Shown here: in pieces, positions 1,682 to 26,262 of the stretch
How the letters are laid out: every line of letters begins with the position of its first letter
Position numbering within the stretch: the stretch's first letter is position 1
Virus record (IMG/VR): IMGVR_UViG_3300031673_000415
Span: 1 to 26,262 of that record
DNA from: a virus
Direction: 5' to 3' (one strand)
Length of the DNA stretch: 26,262 bases
The notes under the pieces: model-generated
The model's input: the letters and a program-made list of their open reading frames with translations, nothing else
The model's database searches: none
What the model was told of the DNA's origin: nothing
Position numbers and translations under genes: made by a program

Positions 1682-1715
1682 CTATTTGCTCACTGTTTTA
1701 TTGTTTAATACGTGT

Positions 1716-1744
1716 ATTATACAGCAATTTGAGGGTTTGGTCAA
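1716..1744 (-). promoter_or_regulatory. Sigma70-type early promoter
   Basis: Read on the minus strand the site is TTGACC, then a 17-nt spacer, then TATAAT: a perfect -10 and a 5/6 match -35 at optimal spacing. Transcription should start near 1709 and feed the row of small genes from 1681 leftward. It is the only near-consensus host-type promoter I found, so this row is probably early, in contrast to the T4-late boxes before the structural genes. The AT-rich DNA upstream has two TTGAAAAG repeats (plus-strand reading, 1778-1785 and 1794-1801), which might be an UP element or a regulator site. Confidence 0.85.
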
Positions 1745-5991: not shown

Positions 5992-6308
5992 ATGCCGTAT
6001 TTGTTTTTCTTGCGCTTGGCAACAGGACTCGTATGGTCTGTATCAGTTGGTTCTTCTGTGGGGCCGGATTCGCTTTTTACATTCATGCCGTTCTTTTTAG
6101 CTGCCGCTTTAATTTTATCTACATCAGCGTCGGTGTAGGCAATGTAGTGACTACAAAGGTCAGTGTCTCTATCCATATCTTCGCCTCCTGCCATATCCAT
6201 TCCAAACCGATAATAATCGTAGTTAGACATTTTGTCAAAGGAAAGAATTCTCGGAGAAGTATCACCATTAAACATGTGATCTTCTTTTATGAATTCCTTA
6301 GCTCTCAT
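5988..6308 (-). CDS. Small protein with capsid-targeting-like N-terminus, 106 aa
   Basis: Begins MRAKEFIKEDHMF, closely like the T4 internal-protein leader MKTYQEFIAE, in which the prohead protease cuts after I-x-E. The middle is acidic and aromatic (NYDYYRFGMDMAGGEDMDR), followed by a DADVDKIKAAAKKNGM helix. The C-terminus is a low-complexity Pro/Thr/Glu stretch ending in a basic KRKKNKYGI tail. No catalytic motif. The start codon overlaps the stop of the 946-residue gene (TAATG) and the stop overlaps the GNAT start. A small DNA-associated internal head protein is a reasonable guess, as T4 internal proteins are also short and basic-tailed, but it is unproved. Confidence 0.75.
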   Translation of the reverse strand: MRAKEFIKEDHMFNGDTSPRILSFDKMSNYDYYRFGMDMAGGEDMDRDTDLCSHYIAYTDADVDKIKAAAKKNGMNVKSESGPTEEPTDTDHTSPVAKRKKNKYGI

Positions 6309-9148
6309 TATTTAATAATGCCAGCGTCGCGCTTTAGACGAGTTAATTGCGCAAGACCTTCGTTAACATGTAGACCTGTTGTTGCTGCTTGTTCTGCCAT
6401 ACGCTTTAGTGCGCCTTTGGCTGCGTTATGATCTGCTTCCTTGCCATCTTTCTTAAGTGCTGCGACCATACGTTTAGCGTCATCTTCTTCGTCGGTGCCG
6501 CCGATCGCTGCGCTCTTGTAAACTTCCAAGTAATCGCTATACGTTGCTTTTGGCAATACAACATCGCCGCGGTACTTGCGATCGCGCGAAGCTCTAGCTT
6601 CGCTAAATTCGTCTTCTTCAATTGATTCCCAGTTATTAGCTGTTTGCTTTACAATCTGGCCGTGGCCATCAAGTTCAACTCCAAGTTGTGATAACACGTT
6701 CTTCCAGGCCCCAAAGCTATCGCTTGAACCGAAGCCTTCGCCTTCTGGCCAGTCATCTGTTAACCAGCTTACTTCGTCACGTACTAGATTGTAAATATAT
6801 TCTGTTCCGTGCTTGGAAATTAAGTCTGGGAATCTAGCATCTAGTCTATTCAGCAGTTGGTTTGTAATGTTGTCGGTTAGTTGTGAATCTTCGTTCATTG
6901 ATTCTTCAAACATGCCGCCCGATCCAGAGTTAGGATCATACAGATCAACGAACGCTTGGATCAATTCACCCGGCGAATCAGAGCCTGGGCTCCATTCACC
7001 TGTATCCTGCTTTATAGTACTTTCCATGTGAGATAGGATTGTCATACGCGCATCTGCTTCTGGACCAAATTCGTCCGCTGCGTTAGCAAGTTCGTCGAAT
7101 AAATCGTCATCACCTATTAGGTCGTATATTGCGCTTGATGCGTTTTGTCCGTTCGGTCCAAATGGTACTGGACTGGACAATAGTTCTACTAGACGCTCTT
7201 GCTTGTCAGGAGTATCTGGAATAGCCCAAGTGCCTTCGGTCACCGCGTTCTTAACTGGCTTGATCTGTTCTTTGCGGTAATAAGTAGAAGTACCGTCGTC
7301 GAATTCAATTCCAACAATAGTTTTCCACGGGTGCATTTGAGAGAATGTGTGCTCACGTTCTACTCGCTTCACTGTACCAGTTTTGCCGTTGTGATCGCTC
7401 TTTCCGTAATCGTCTTGGCCACGTACTACTACGCTGCGACCAATCCAAGGATGGTCTCTAAGTGGTCCAGCTTTAACTTCGTTTACGGCACCTTCGTGGT
7501 AATGTCTACCTTGTCTCTTAGCTGCTGTTTTTTCTTGCCATGCTTCGTGATCGAGGTGGCTACGTCCTATTTCGTATCCTTTGTAATAGTCTGTAGCGTA
7601 TGGTCCAAAGGACGTGTGCGCTGCTTTCTTTGGACGACTGTTACGAGCATCGTCAAAGCCCATGTCGTATGCTTTCTTAGCGCCGCCTGTACGAGCGTCT
7701 TCTTTAAAAGATTGATTGCCTTTGCGATACTTAGTAGCGACTGGGATGTTTCCATTCTCGTCGCGACCATTTACGTTGCCATCTTTGCCCATTGACTTTC
7801 GAGCATGCTTTGTTGCCCAGTACTGAGTCTTGTCGAGCGCGTTTGGCCCGTGACGACTAACATGTCCGGCCCACTCTCTGTCATCTTCTTTCTGTCCTTC
7901 TTTAACTGCTTTGTTCTTTTCGTGGCAATCGCAATGCGGGCACTCTGGGCCGCAATGGCACTGGCTAATAGGCTTGCCGCAGCATTCTGTTGAGCACAGC
8001 TCTTCTGCTTCTTCAACTTTTTTATCTTTGCCAAGCGCATCTCTCATACGCTTCTTGTGCCCTAACCGCGCATCAGTACGGCGTTGGTTCTTGCGTTGTT
8101 GTTGCGCAGGTGTTGCTTTTGTCGGCATCTCGGTAATTTCGTCAGCCCATTCTTCAAATTCTGTTATTGGTTTCATAGATGGAGTCTTTGGTTTTAAGTT
8201 TTTACGGTTAAATGCTTTTCGTACTACAGGCATAGCATTTTCCATTTTATCGCTAAAGCGTTTCTTCGTGAATCGTTCTTTCATTTCAGACATCTCGTCT
8301 TCTAAGATTTCCTGCTGTTCTGTAACTTCAAAACTCTCTGCGTATGCTTTGTAACCGCGCTTGCCTTTAAGCTTACCTAAGGTCTTGCGGGTTTCTGCGT
8401 AATATTCTTTTGCTGCCTCTACCATCTGCATGGTAGTTTCGTCTTCGTAGATTGCGTTTCTGTTACGCGATACGAATGGGCGCAAGCTTGCGATTTCGCT
8501 TACCATCGTTGAAATGGATTCGCCAATGTCGTCGTAAGGGCGTCCACCCTGGCCAATGTGTTGAGCCATTGCTCGGGTACCAGGCAGATTGTTGAAGGGC
8601 ATTTTAAAACGCTCTCCTTCAAATGTTTCCACAAATACCGATTCGACTTTACGTGAGCGTGAGCCGCGTATCTCTGGGTCAATGTTTTGTGAGTGTCGCA
8701 CAATAATTTTAGCCGGACCTTGATCTTGGTAGCTGCTCTTTGTGCTGCCGTACATTTTACCTTCTTGCATACTATTTCTATTCACTGTTGATTGGATGTC
8801 AGCGATATCCAAGTTAGACTTAGTGATATCGTGTGTGTCGAAGCCGTATAGATTTGACATAGCGGTCTTGCGCATGTCTTGTAAGAATTCGTACCATTCA
8901 GTTAGCTCAGATCCACTAAGGTCGCTGGAAATGTTTTTACTGTAGTAAACTTTCATTGTTCTGTCAATTAAGCTTACGGTGATGTTTCCATGGTCGTGTC
9001 CTTGGTTATCAACGTAGTTAAAATTGAAGAAAACTGCGGTTTGTGGATCCTGGGTCGAATTGCCTTCGTCGTCACCCAAGGTGATTTGTCTAAATTTGCT
9101 TCGGAGCTTGTCAAAGACCTGCTCGCCTATTTTATTCTGAATTTCCAT
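6308..9148 (-). CDS. Large mosaic phage protein of unknown function, 946 aa
   Basis: The longest gene after the sheath. Residues 1-280 form one conserved-looking block (KMYGSTKSSY at 131-140, IIVRHSQNIDPEI at 148-160, LPGTRAMAQHI at 188-198) that I recall from unknown proteins of marine T4-like phages. Residues 340-380 are basic. Residues 384-408 are Cys/His-rich (at least eight Cys), a probable metal-binding knuckle. Residues 490-535 hold an AYDMGFDDA...YKGYEIG module like those in small RMF-like proteins. Residues 567-630 look like a KOW/SH3-type beta domain. Residues 655-710 (IGDDDLFDEL) and about 760-830 are two further helical modules. The starting MEIQNKIGEQ has an I-x-E. It lies directly below gp17 with its own late box 5 nt before the ATG and no Shine-Dalgarno. 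A virion role is likely but not shown. Confidence 0.85.
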   Translation of the reverse strand: MEIQNKIGEQVFDKLRSKFRQITLGDDEGNSTQDPQTAVFFNFNYVDNQGHDHGNITVSLIDRTMKVYYSKNISSDLSGSELTEWYEFLQDMRKTAMSNLYGFDTHDITKSNLDIADIQSTVNRNSMQEGKMYGSTKSSYQDQGPAKIIVRHSQNIDPEIRGSRSRKVESVFVETFEGERFKMPFNNLPGTRAMAQHIGQGGRPYDDIGESISTMVSEIASLRPFVSRNRNAIYEDETTMQMVEAAKEYYAETRKTLGKLKGKRGYKAYAESFEVTEQQEILEDEMSEMKERFTKKRFSDKMENAMPVVRKAFNRKNLKPKTPSMKPITEFEEWADEITEMPTKATPAQQQRKNQRRTDARLGHKKRMRDALGKDKKVEEAEELCSTECCGKPISQCHCGPECPHCDCHEKNKAVKEGQKEDDREWAGHVSRHGPNALDKTQYWATKHARKSMGKDGNVNGRDENGNIPVATKYRKGNQSFKEDARTGGAKKAYDMGFDDARNSRPKKAAHTSFGPYATDYYKGYEIGRSHLDHEAWQEKTAAKRQGRHYHEGAVNEVKAGPLRDHPWIGRSVVVRGQDDYGKSDHNGKTGTVKRVEREHTFSQMHPWKTIVGIEFDDGTSTYYRKEQIKPVKNAVTEGTWAIPDTPDKQERLVELLSSPVPFGPNGQNASSAIYDLIGDDDLFDELANAADEFGPEADARMTILSHMESTIKQDTGEWSPGSDSPGELIQAFVDLYDPNSGSGGMFEESMNEDSQLTDNITNQLLNRLDARFPDLISKHGTEYIYNLVRDEVSWLTDDWPEGEGFGSSDSFGAWKNVLSQLGVELDGHGQIVKQTANNWESIEEDEFSEARASRDRKYRGDVVLPKATYSDYLEVYKSAAIGGTDEEDDAKRMVAALKKDGKEADHNAAKGALKRMAEQAATTGLHVNEGLAQLTRLKRDAGIIK

Positions 9149-22482: not shown

Positions 22483-22490
22483 GATAAATA
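22483..22490 (+). promoter_or_regulatory. Late promoter box GATAAATA, 5 nt before the plus-strand gene
   Basis: GATAAATA, TCAGT, ATG: the only plus-strand late box, right in front of the only plus-strand gene, with no Shine-Dalgarno. The coincidence of strand and spacing supports function. It is divergent to the gp18 promoter 61 nt away. Confidence 0.72.
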
Positions 22491-22495
22491 TCAGT

Positions 22496-22846
22496 ATGAA
22501 GAGACCTTTGTGTAAGAATTGTAAGACAAGACCTGCTGCCGTGAACTATATACGTCACGGTATACGTCACTACAGAAGTAAATGCGGATATTGTATAAGA
22601 GCGATTGCTAACCCAAAGAAGAAACTGGTTCCGTCGTGGTTGCTATCGGGTTATAAGAAGAAGATGAAATGCGAGCAGTGTGGGTTTAGAGCAGTTGACC
22701 AAAGTCAGATCGCTGTGCTCTATGTGGATGGGGATTTGAGAAATAACAATTGGCCAAACTTGAAATCAGTTTGTGCCAATTGCGTTATTGAGATTTCTAT
22801 TAAAGGATTGGGTTGGAAAGAAGATGACGTTCGACCAGACTTCTAA
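22496..22846 (+). CDS. HNH-like four-CxxC zinc protein, 116 aa (probably catalytically inactive)
   Basis: The only plus-strand gene in the window. Four CxxC pairs: CKNC (6-9), CGYC (30-33), CEQC (59-62) and CANC (93-96). The last part, LYVDGDLRNNNWPNLKSVCA, matches the HNH/5-methylcytosine-restriction type core H-x-DG-x4-NN-x2-NL-x3-C-x2-C, but the catalytic His-His pair is replaced by Leu-Tyr, so cleavage is unlikely. The basic N-terminal half could bind DNA or RNA. I recall similar small proteins beginning RPLCKNCxxRPAAVNYxR in marine T4-like phages. Its 3' end overlaps that of dNMP kinase by 47 nt tail-to-tail, so the two messages are antisense there. Function unknown. Confidence 0.85.
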   Translation: MKRPLCKNCKTRPAAVNYIRHGIRHYRSKCGYCIRAIANPKKKLVPSWLLSGYKKKMKCEQCGFRAVDQSQIAVLYVDGDLRNNNWPNLKSVCANCVIEISIKGLGWKEDDVRPDF

Positions 22847-24084: not shown

Positions 24085-24837
24085 TTAACCTATGACGAAC
24101 CACATTGGCTGGCCACCATCTTCGAAGTTCAGTAGAGCCTTTTCTAGCTCTTCCATTTCCTTGGTTGCTTCGGTCTTCAATGTGTCGCCGTTTAAGCTTG
24201 TGCCGCCTTGCGGGCCGTTGATTGTGTTGAACTTGCTTCGTGCTTCGCCCAGGATAAATTTAGCTTGCGAATAAGCGTAGTCGTTAATCCATTGACCCGA
24301 GTATGTGTCGCGTAGGATGATAGCGTCCGGCTTGTAATTGTACTGCCAAAGCAATACGTTTTCTTCTGCGCCTTCTGGGATCTTACGTACAAGTGTGAGT
24401 GCTTTTGTAGTTGGGTTAAACGTGAAGTTCAAGTAACCACCGAACATGCGCATTGCTAGCTCTTGGAAGCCTGCGTACAGATCGTACATGACCATGCCGC
24501 CTTGACGTCCCGACTGTAGTAGGTACGCATTCATCCAGCCTGCGCTGAAGGGTTCAAAGTTCGATGTTGATTGCGAGTTACCTAAACCGCGTCGAAAGAT
24601 TTGTCTAACTGACATGACTTCGTTTGGTAGGATGTACGTTTGTTGCTCAGAAATTAATTCCAAGATGCCGTAGCTCTCTTCTACCGCGTTTTCGCTGCGT
24701 TGACGGTACTTGGATAGTGCTCGTTTTATAGCAGTGTCGTAGTGCTTAGGATCGAGTTCAACGTCGACCATATCTCCGCCCAACCTGCTATAAATCTGGT
24801 CTACTACGTCTTGCTTTAGTTCTTCGGGTGTTTGCAT
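24085..24837 (-). CDS. Neck/head-tail connector protein, gp13-like
   Basis: A 250-residue structural protein. Residues 1-55 form a helical start typical of connector adaptors (DQIYSRLGGDMVDVELDPKH, YDTAIKRALSKYRQRSENA). The middle has EQQTYILPNEVMSVRQIFRR (64-83) and a beta-rich region (GYLNFTFNPTTKALTLVRKI). The C-terminal WINDYAYSQAKFILGEARSK, NGPQGGTSLNGDTLKTEA matches the 'Y-x-x-A-x-K-x-x-x-G-x-x-x-x-K-F-x-x-x-x-G-x-x-x-x-NG' unit I recall from gp13-type neck proteins of marine T4-like phages. The match to T4 gp13 itself (309 residues) is weak, so the gp number is tentative. A late box is 20 nt upstream with Shine-Dalgarno AGGAT. Confidence 0.7.
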   Translation of the reverse strand: MQTPEELKQDVVDQIYSRLGGDMVDVELDPKHYDTAIKRALSKYRQRSENAVEESYGILELISEQQTYILPNEVMSVRQIFRRGLGNSQSTSNFEPFSAGWMNAYLLQSGRQGGMVMYDLYAGFQELAMRMFGGYLNFTFNPTTKALTLVRKIPEGAEENVLLWQYNYKPDAIILRDTYSGQWINDYAYSQAKFILGEARSKFNTINGPQGGTSLNGDTLKTEATKEMEELEKALLNFEDGGQPMWFVIG

Positions 24838-24877: not shown

Positions 24878-25285
24878 TTATAGGCCGGCTCTGTTCTGTC
24901 TTGCTCTTATATTCTTTAAAATATCGCTGGCGCGGTCTTTGTCGTCTGGAAACTTGGCTGTATTCGCCATTGAGAAATATGTTGCTTGTTTCTCTGTTGT
25001 TAAGAATACGTCAATTTGGTCCCGGTCGATGCGATCCGCAACAGACCAGCACCAGTACCAATCCAATCCCTTTGTTGGTAGTTTGGAAATGACTTGCCTG
25101 GATGGCGTGGAGTGATAATCTTTCTTTATTTGAACTTCTTCCCATTCTGCGCCATCCACGCTGGAAATAAGCTCTAGGATTTCAAGAAATTCTACAAACG
25201 ACATATCCTTGGGATAGTCGTATTTACACCAGTGCGATGCGCCAAACATGCGCATCGGATGATCTTTTGGAAGTTCCTTAATCAT
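24878..25285 (-). CDS. Tandem paralogue 5 (YLTTxEQ family), 135 aa
   Basis: Largest complete member of the tandem family. It has DVFLTTEKQATYFSMANTAK (about 95-114), the same C-terminal block as its neighbours, followed here by an extra basic helix (ASDILKNIRARQNRAGL). The middle contains a Trp-rich segment (GLDWYWCWSVADRI) and a Asp/Arg-rich stretch where neighbours have similar 'W-x(n)-R/D' patterns. Starts 8 nt before the stop of the previous member. Function unknown. Confidence 0.75.
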   Translation of the reverse strand: MIKELPKDHPMRMFGASHWCKYDYPKDMSFVEFLEILELISSVDGAEWEEVQIKKDYHSTPSRQVISKLPTKGLDWYWCWSVADRIDRDQIDVFLTTEKQATYFSMANTAKFPDDKDRASDILKNIRARQNRAGL

Positions 25286-25568
25286 TCTTGTCGAAGGCCA
25301 CCGAGCAAAAGGTTACTTGTTCTTCTGTGGTGAGATAGATGACGTGATTCATACAGCCAGTGTCAAGCCGACCAGGATCCTTGTTGCGGAACATCCAGCT
25401 ATTTCCGTCGTCTGCGCCAGTATTTGTATAAGGGAGTCCCATGCCAAACGCTTGTGCCAATCTCAAAATAGCTAGACTGTAGCCATGATGAGTGTGAAAC
25501 GTTATTGACCATTTCGCATAGCCGTATTTGAAGACGTTGTGCGTATTGTTAAGCTTTTTAATTTTCAT
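25278..25568 (-). CDS. Tandem paralogue 4 (YLTTxEQ family), 96 aa
   Basis: C-terminal block HVIYLTTEEQVTFCSVAFDK, the clearest copy of the shared motif. The N-terminal part has VFKYGYAKWSITF and a following helix (SLAILRLAQAFGMGLPY), the middle 'SWMFRNKDPGRLDTGCM'. The same order - aromatic strand, helix ending at Gly, Trp-containing strand, Arg/Asp loop, YLTT strand, helix - appears in the neighbours. It follows member 3 after 1 nt. Function unknown. Confidence 0.75.
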   Translation of the reverse strand: MKIKKLNNTHNVFKYGYAKWSITFHTHHGYSLAILRLAQAFGMGLPYTNTGADDGNSWMFRNKDPGRLDTGCMNHVIYLTTEEQVTFCSVAFDKND

Positions 25569-25569
25569 A

Positions 25570-25872
25570 TTAATTAAAGAATAAACTTACCATCGTAAGT
25601 TGTTCGGGTGTTGTTAAATAGATTTTATAGTTTGGAACGCAGGCTCCGTATCGGCGGCGTTCGGCGTCAGTGTAATACCACACGCTGTTGTCGCCGGCAT
25701 TCCTGCGGTATCCTCGTTCCAATTTTGATCGATCGTGCTCGATGCCTGGACCGTACGCATTTTCCATATATTTACATGCTGCTTTGAACTTTGCGCTGTC
25801 TTCAAATTTAAGCTGAACTATCGCGAAAGTATACAGCGAATGAAGCTTATGATTGATTACTTGCGCTATCAT
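25570..25872 (-). CDS. Tandem paralogue 3 (YLTTxEQ family), 100 aa
   Basis: C-terminal block YKIYLTTPEQLTMVSLFFN. The N-terminal strand-helix unit is FAIVQLKFEDSAKFKAACKY, ending at AYGPGIEHDRSK, and the middle is NSVWYYTDAERRRYGACVPN. The start overlaps the stop of member 2 (ATGA). Predicted small alpha/beta domain of unknown function. Confidence 0.75.
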   Translation of the reverse strand: MIAQVINHKLHSLYTFAIVQLKFEDSAKFKAACKYMENAYGPGIEHDRSKLERGYRRNAGDNSVWYYTDAERRRYGACVPNYKIYLTTPEQLTMVSLFFN

Positions 25873-26192
25873 CTGTCGTGACCATCGGAGTCTATATTAG
25901 ACATTGCTAATGTGATGTATGTTACTTGCTCTTGGCGTCGAAAATACATCTTGAAATCTCTCATTGGACGATCGATAGCATTGCTAGCTTTGAAGCTATA
26001 AAACCAGTCGCGCTTGTTGGGTATTTGCTCGTACTTGCGATAGCGACCAGGATTGAACCGCTGACCCTGATCATATGCTTTGGCCATTATTTTTTCAGCA
26101 CGGAAAAATTCCCTTGGCGTAAACAGACAGGCATACTTCGCTTGCCCTGTTTTGTGCAATTTGAACCGCTTGTCAAGTGTAATCCACCTCAT
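25869..26192 (-). CDS. Tandem paralogue 2 (YLTTxEQ family), 107 aa
   Basis: The shared C-terminal block is diverged: KMYFRRQEQVTYITLAMSNI. Upstream it has KYACLFTPREFFRAEKIMAK, ending in KAYDQGQRFNPG, then KRDWFYSFKASNAIDRPMRD, matching the strand-helix-G-W-R/D order of the family. It overlaps the cut member 1 by ATGA and couples to member 3 the same way. Function unknown. Confidence 0.75.
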   Translation of the reverse strand: MRWITLDKRFKLHKTGQAKYACLFTPREFFRAEKIMAKAYDQGQRFNPGRYRKYEQIPNKRDWFYSFKASNAIDRPMRDFKMYFRRQEQVTYITLAMSNIDSDGHDR

Positions 26193-26262
26193 ACTCGCTC
26201 CAGGTGCGCATATGCCAATTGCATAAATGTTAATTGATCATCGGTTGTTAAGTGAACGCAGA
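26189..26262 (-). CDS. Tandem paralogue 1 (YLTTxEQ family), C-terminal end only
   Basis: The frame entering from the right edge reads CVHLTTDDQLTFMQLAYAHL and ends ERV at a TGA (26191-26189) overlapping the next ATG. VHLTTDDQLT matches the YLTTxEQxT block of the four downstream genes. Only this C-terminal end lies in the window. Confidence 0.7.
   Translation of the reverse strand, partial: CVHLTTDDQLTFMQLAYAHLERV

Follow-up and report, generated by a model that had tools for sequence, protein, structure and literature searches.

The right end of a phage genome fragment of 26,262 bases (the whole virus record IMGVR_UViG_3300031673_000415, called the window below) carries a run of small genes on the minus strand, head to tail, directly upstream of a neck gene. 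Four of these genes are complete and a fifth is represented by its tail. The question raised by this locus is whether the genes belong to one family and, if so, what the products of such an array may do for the phage. The genes of the array (members 1 to 5, in order of reading) and the elements that border it are:

26189..26262, minus strand: member 1, the first gene of the array; the window holds its C-terminal 23 residues only
25869..26192, minus strand: member 2, 107 aa, pI 10.0, 'DNRFKL' subtype
25570..25872, minus strand: member 3, 100 aa, pI 9.1
25278..25568, minus strand: member 4, 96 aa, pI 8.6, 'LNxTHNVF' subtype
24878..25285, minus strand: member 5, 135 aa, pI 5.9, the most diverged, with an extra C-terminal helix
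24858..24865, minus strand: T4-like late promoter box GATAAATA, 28 nt before the ATG of the neck gene and immediately past the array
24085..24837, minus strand: neck protein (head-tail adaptor Ad2, phrog_211), the downstream border of the array and outside the family

An array of five diverged paralogues

From member 1 to member 5, the junctions are two ATGA overlaps of 4 nt, a 1-nt gap and an 8-nt overlap. The coordinates thus confirm the original prediction that five consecutive genes overlap or abut. The same prediction held that the array continues beyond the window, which is correct for the rest of the fifth gene but not further. Contig L002, from another metagenome, shares 1805 bp with the window with 1 mismatch and completes member 1 (L002:3940-4284; 114 aa, pI 4.9). 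Upstream of member 1 it then shows an 87-aa gene without a family-profile match and a 385-aa gene (phrog_11903). The array of the window's phage therefore consists of exactly five genes.

BLASTP comparisons between members gave an E-value of 9e-9 for members 3 and 4; for two further pairs of neighbours the values were 7e-4 to 2e-3. We also used profiles that leave out one subtype at a time (i.e. built without the given member and its orthologues) and searched a set of about 8,400 ORFs. These profiles recovered members 1 to 5 at E-values of 4e-4, 3e-7, 4e-10, 6e-13, and 1.4e-3, respectively, and all significant matches in the set lay between the 385-aa gene and the neck gene. One could still suppose that unrelated small proteins share a C-terminal block by chance, given that, when the five are aligned, the others are just 17-39% identical to member 3 and that the E-values of the most diverged members are near 1e-3. 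Chance similarity would have to explain, however, why left-out profiles find all five genes and why the significant matches all fall in the same interval of other phages. On both counts we regard it as refuted, with next to no probability left to it. The five genes are true paralogues, diverged and in tandem as first proposed.

The shared block itself is real, but its initial description as YLTTxEQ was too narrow; the pattern is roughly [IVLM][YFH][LF][TRK][TRSN]x[EDK]Q. A loose form of it, derived from the members themselves, is present in all five, and none of 10,000 shuffles placed it in all five at once. Across the related phages, the weakest members when left out are those of L011, L012:3721, and L005:342 (E 0.07-0.5), which are placed in the family mainly by position and motif. 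The candidate L006:1685 has no support as a member (left-out profile E 14).

A fixed site in one clade of phages

The window's tail sheath, tail tubes, large terminase, neck protein (Ad2), and dNMP kinase match PHROGs, and, among annotated relatives, those of Atu_ph07 and the PA5oct group are closest to the neck protein (43-44% identity). We infer a lineage of jumbo myoviruses that has Atu_ph07, PA5oct, and the Rak2-like phages as distant relatives; the phage is called jumbo because these nearest relatives are jumbo phages, the record itself being a fragment. The window also includes a 946-aa gene (6308-9148, minus strand) whose first 250 residues match the virion structural family phrog_13484, with no match listed for the rest.

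Seventy-five loci contain both border genes, and in sixty of them, all from more distant phages, the two lie 8-60 nt apart. In the clade, which we defined by at least 74% neck identity, the interval from the 385-aa gene to the neck gene is 397-1962 nt long and filled with family members. One to five members occupy it in ten related phage lineages. L002 (the window's phage), L005, and L007 have five each, L006 has four in addition to the candidate above, L012 has three (one of them weak), and L008 has two; L009/L010 carry one, as does L011 (weak). L162 and L165, which were found by a scan for the early promoter box described below and not by family search, show the 385-aa gene followed by one and five members, respectively, on contigs that are cut. 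In five other loci, different genes stand between the two border genes, so the interval accepts insertions in general. The more distant phages with adjoining border genes include the PA5oct-type phage 30-3, which keeps both genes as the array phages do but has them side by side, with only 36 nt between them. A family search of sixteen viral records and of the whole records of Atu_ph07 and phage 30-3 gave no convincing member in these two; the only returns were the array of L010 itself and an implausible match that contains stops.

Other contents of this region were also noted. A 333-aa gene in the same interval of two loci (L132:2028-3029 and L127:2180-3181) is radical SAM-like (CxxxCPLCPR). 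The 385-aa-to-neck interval of another (L118:3180-4432) holds small genes with a similar strand-(N/P)EED-helix ending, as well as a GIY-YIG-like gene on the other strand; both enzyme-like names were given by inspection only. A little upstream of the neck gene, L087:31-946 has a tandem run of four small genes with a different closing block, YEFxNEKDAxLFSLKFS. The similar last block raised the question of homology between this 'NEKDAxLFSLKFS' array and the family, which found no support: hhalign gave a probability of 0.3-0.8%, and only the last strand-helix block looks alike.

When twenty-seven members were scanned against Pfam, PHROGs, and NCBIfam, none scored above cut-off; the best E-values (0.016-0.034) were all single-member matches. 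The same three databases yielded no relative among known defence or anti-defence proteins, and PDB sequence searches gave no match better than E 0.2. Neither megablast with the window's last 10 kb nor tblastn with members 3 and 5 found a match in 50,697 phage records. Scans of viral contigs with the subtype 3 and subtype 4 alignments returned only the loci already known, and a scan of genome contigs with the subtype 3 alignment returned zero matches. No description of the family was found in the literature, where mostly non-subscription papers were covered. As far as the databases searched (Pfam, PHROGs, NCBIfam) go, this is a new protein family.

Old subtypes, shuffled content, and constraint

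Orthologues of member 2 occur in L005, L006, L007, L008, and L012 (27-39% identity where measured), and L165 has the N-terminal start of one more. Member 3 has orthologues in L005 (79%) and L006 (63%), and member 4 in L005, L006, L007, and L012 (46-54%). Mean identity is 45% for the same subtype in different phages and 28% for different subtypes in the same phage. The subtypes are therefore older than the divergence of these phages. A tree of all members is weak, with good support for the subtype 3 group and a few pairs. Gene order is partly kept, but the positions of members 3 and 4 are swapped in L006, L005 has an inserted 61-aa gene, and L008 has a 54-aa gene that is seemingly the start of one subtype joined to the end of another with the middle missing. 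A search for DNA repeats able to drive recombination found only short coding similarities.

The original prediction of a diversified tandem phage family is supported by these comparisons, but ongoing diversifying selection, as one reading of its further remark on selection, is not supported. Between member 3 and its L005 orthologue, dN is 0.137 and dS is 1.065 (dN/dS about 0.13). This is the one subtype for which dN/dS could be measured, with values of about 0.13-0.33; for most member 2 and member 4 pairs dS is saturated or unreliable. The measurable subtype shows purifying, not diversifying, selection, and the age of the subtypes also speaks against ongoing diversifying selection. Between the window and L005, identity is 39% for member 2, 54% for member 4, 79% for member 3, and 86% for the neck protein. 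This faster divergence of the members than of their borders is a matter of weaker or shifting constraint and not proof of positive selection.

An array of this kind might also be the by-product of recent tandem duplication, with little function and heading for loss. Copy number that varies from one to five and the fusion-like gene of L008 would suit such a history. Subtypes that are shared across phages and the constraint seen in member 3 do not, and we consider this explanation very unlikely.

Predicted fold and conserved residues

An AlphaFold2 model of member 4, made with thirteen relatives, has a pLDDT of 84.6 and a pTM of 0.78. It is a compact alpha/beta fold (beta, short helix, beta, alpha, beta, beta, alpha), and the shared block forms its last strand and last helix. 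The order of elements is close to that of the ferredoxin-like plait (beta-alpha-beta-beta-alpha-beta) with the last strand missing. No solved structure in the PDB was above background by fold; the best Z was 5.1, from mixed chains, and is not significant. In BFVD, three small uncharacterised proteins of uncultured Caudovirales phages (A0A6J5L697, A0A6J5LGW6, A0A6J7WDI0) are alike in fold, with a Foldseek probability of 1.00 and TM 0.54-0.65, but at 13-16% identity and E-values of 1e-3 to 3e-3 their homology to the family is unproven. The member 5 model is of low confidence (pLDDT 66.7); its element order is compatible with that of member 4, plus the C-terminal helix, and its BFVD neighbours differ from those of member 4. 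We place member 5 in the family by its sequence and position.

Invariant residues among the fourteen closest members are limited to Ala18, Trp58, and Gln84, and a wider set of sixteen retains only a Trp. Neither set gave any sign of a conserved catalytic constellation or active site. With so few invariant positions, the family fits binding proteins better than enzymes.

Promoter signals around the array

The late box before the neck gene is present in every clade locus that includes that gene. It has the form [TG]ATAAATA and, in the eight clade loci examined, lies 28 to 38 nt upstream of the neck ATG. From the start of the 385-aa gene to the neck gene's own box, no late box was found in these eight loci, two of which (L005 and L006) are on contigs that start inside the 385-aa gene. 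Thirty boxes of this form were found in nine sources against fourteen expected, and twenty-six of the thirty are just upstream of a same-strand ORF, for which the background is 16%. A T4-like late sigma factor has been reported for Atu_ph07 (PMC6102473).

Sites matching the sigma-70 consensus (TTGA-N19-TATAAT) were found nine times against 0.5 expected. A host-type sigma-70 site heads the operon that ends in the array in L002, L007, L009, L011, L012, L162, and L165, and the contigs of L005, L006, and L008 begin inside the operon, short of its head. In L002, a 10/12 site stands immediately in front of the 385-aa gene, and a site farther upstream is perfect (12/12). In L006 one member has its own sigma-70-like site (L006:1933-1968), which ends about 7 nt before the ATG; a consensus sigma-70 site at this place would imply a leaderless transcript, if real.

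The array is probably early, because a sigma-70 promoter heads its operon and the neck gene has a separate late box behind the array. An early array and a late neck gene would be the most economical reading of these signals. Since the neck gene has a late promoter of its own, the products of the array need not be in the virion. They could nevertheless be late accessory virion proteins of the neck region, as the array directly adjoins the neck gene on the same strand. Such a role sits poorly with a late box that comes after the array, with none inside the 385-aa gene or the array, and most relatives keep both border genes yet do without the array. We think a virion role improbable; from its promoters, the array looks early-expressed and non-structural.

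Further promoter signals occur elsewhere. The window also has an early promoter module (TTGACC...TATAAT) at 1701-1744, minus strand, which includes the box TGTATAATACACGTATTAAACAA exactly. Only seven viral contigs yielded the 21-base core of this box, which apparently marks early-type operons of the lineage. On other contigs the same box precedes operons with RecA/UvsX-like and AAA+-like genes (named from inspection of the sequence only), and in L166 a RecA-like gene lies upstream of the box, not behind it. A late box at 22483 of the window belongs to a Cys-rich 116-aa gene (22496-22846, plus strand), which runs opposite to the sheath and dNMP kinase genes that flank it. Similar Cys-rich starts with a late box are found in L005, L009, and L011. 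This gene has no Pfam match and, by inspection only, is possibly a degenerate HNH-type protein.

A possible role against host targets

Our best explanation, which we hold with moderate confidence, is an early accessory array at a fixed site whose products would bind host targets, most likely a defence component or a takeover target. In this scheme, old duplication followed by gain, loss, and reshuffling would have built the array from one small alpha/beta family. Host RNA polymerase would read the operon early from the sigma-70 promoter, through the small genes, the 385-aa gene, and the array. The products would keep one scaffold, with a Trp core and with T-T-x-E-Q as the cap that leads from the last strand into the last helix, and their surfaces and loops would vary so that each member may bind a different host target. 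Late transcription would then restart at the neck gene's own late promoter.

The main competitor is that the members are early RNA- or DNA-binding proteins that regulate gene expression in the phage or the host. In subtypes 2, 3, and 4 most members have a pI of 8.6-10, and the weak PDB likenesses of the predicted fold include ribosome-associated, KH, RRM-type, and ACT-type plaits, all within the non-significant range given above. Other subtypes are acidic, however (pI 4.6-5.9), and charge is not common to the family; there is no invariant basic motif, and no nucleic-acid-binding family was matched above cut-off. We treat regulation as a tentative alternative, possible but doubtful.

Small, diversified, binding proteins made early would best suit counter-defence or host takeover, so we take anti-defence or host takeover to be the most likely role. 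Probable early expression and variable copy number at a fixed site would both fit host adaptation or anti-defence. There is precedent for this line of argument in archaeal viruses, where early regulatory sequence was used to predict anti-defence genes and two inhibitors were validated (PMC11065993), and reviewers expect undiscovered anti-defence proteins among the small ORFs of jumbo phages (PMC13282480).

A stronger version would make the array a dedicated counter-defence repertoire at a fixed site. Each subtype of the diversified scaffold would inhibit a different host defence protein, and phages would exchange the set by recombination in the stretch bounded by a conserved early gene and a late promoter. 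We consider this version rather unlikely. If it were true, the runs of small genes in L087 and L118, which share a similar closing block and lie near the same neck gene in other lineages, would make the strategy recurrent.

Jumbo phages have many small ORFs of unknown role, among which anti-defence functions are expected. Here the fixed site, conserved flanks, single diversified family, and early promoter box offer a practical handle for finding members in related genomes, and the members could be cloned and tested against defence systems as one set. The array also shows how such repertoires evolve, with old subtypes, partly kept order, and gain and loss of single genes.

Comparison with known systems

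As a type of locus the array is not new, since T4-related phages are known to have variable early accessory regions. Arbiol et al. are said to have described, in 2010, modular shuffling in the hyperplastic, accessory early-gene regions of T4-type phages. Like the array, those regions have small accessory ORFs behind host-like promoters that are gained, lost, and reshuffled between conserved core genes. They differ in that the T4-type regions are mixtures of unrelated ORFs, whereas the array is one family at one fixed site, with old subtypes and a partly kept order.

The second comparison is with the anti-defence clusters of archaeal viruses (PMC11065993). The array belongs to a bacterial jumbo phage, and no Aca-like regulator and no known inhibitor were recognised in it. 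What the two have in common is small genes behind an early-type promoter and a content that is patchy between relatives.
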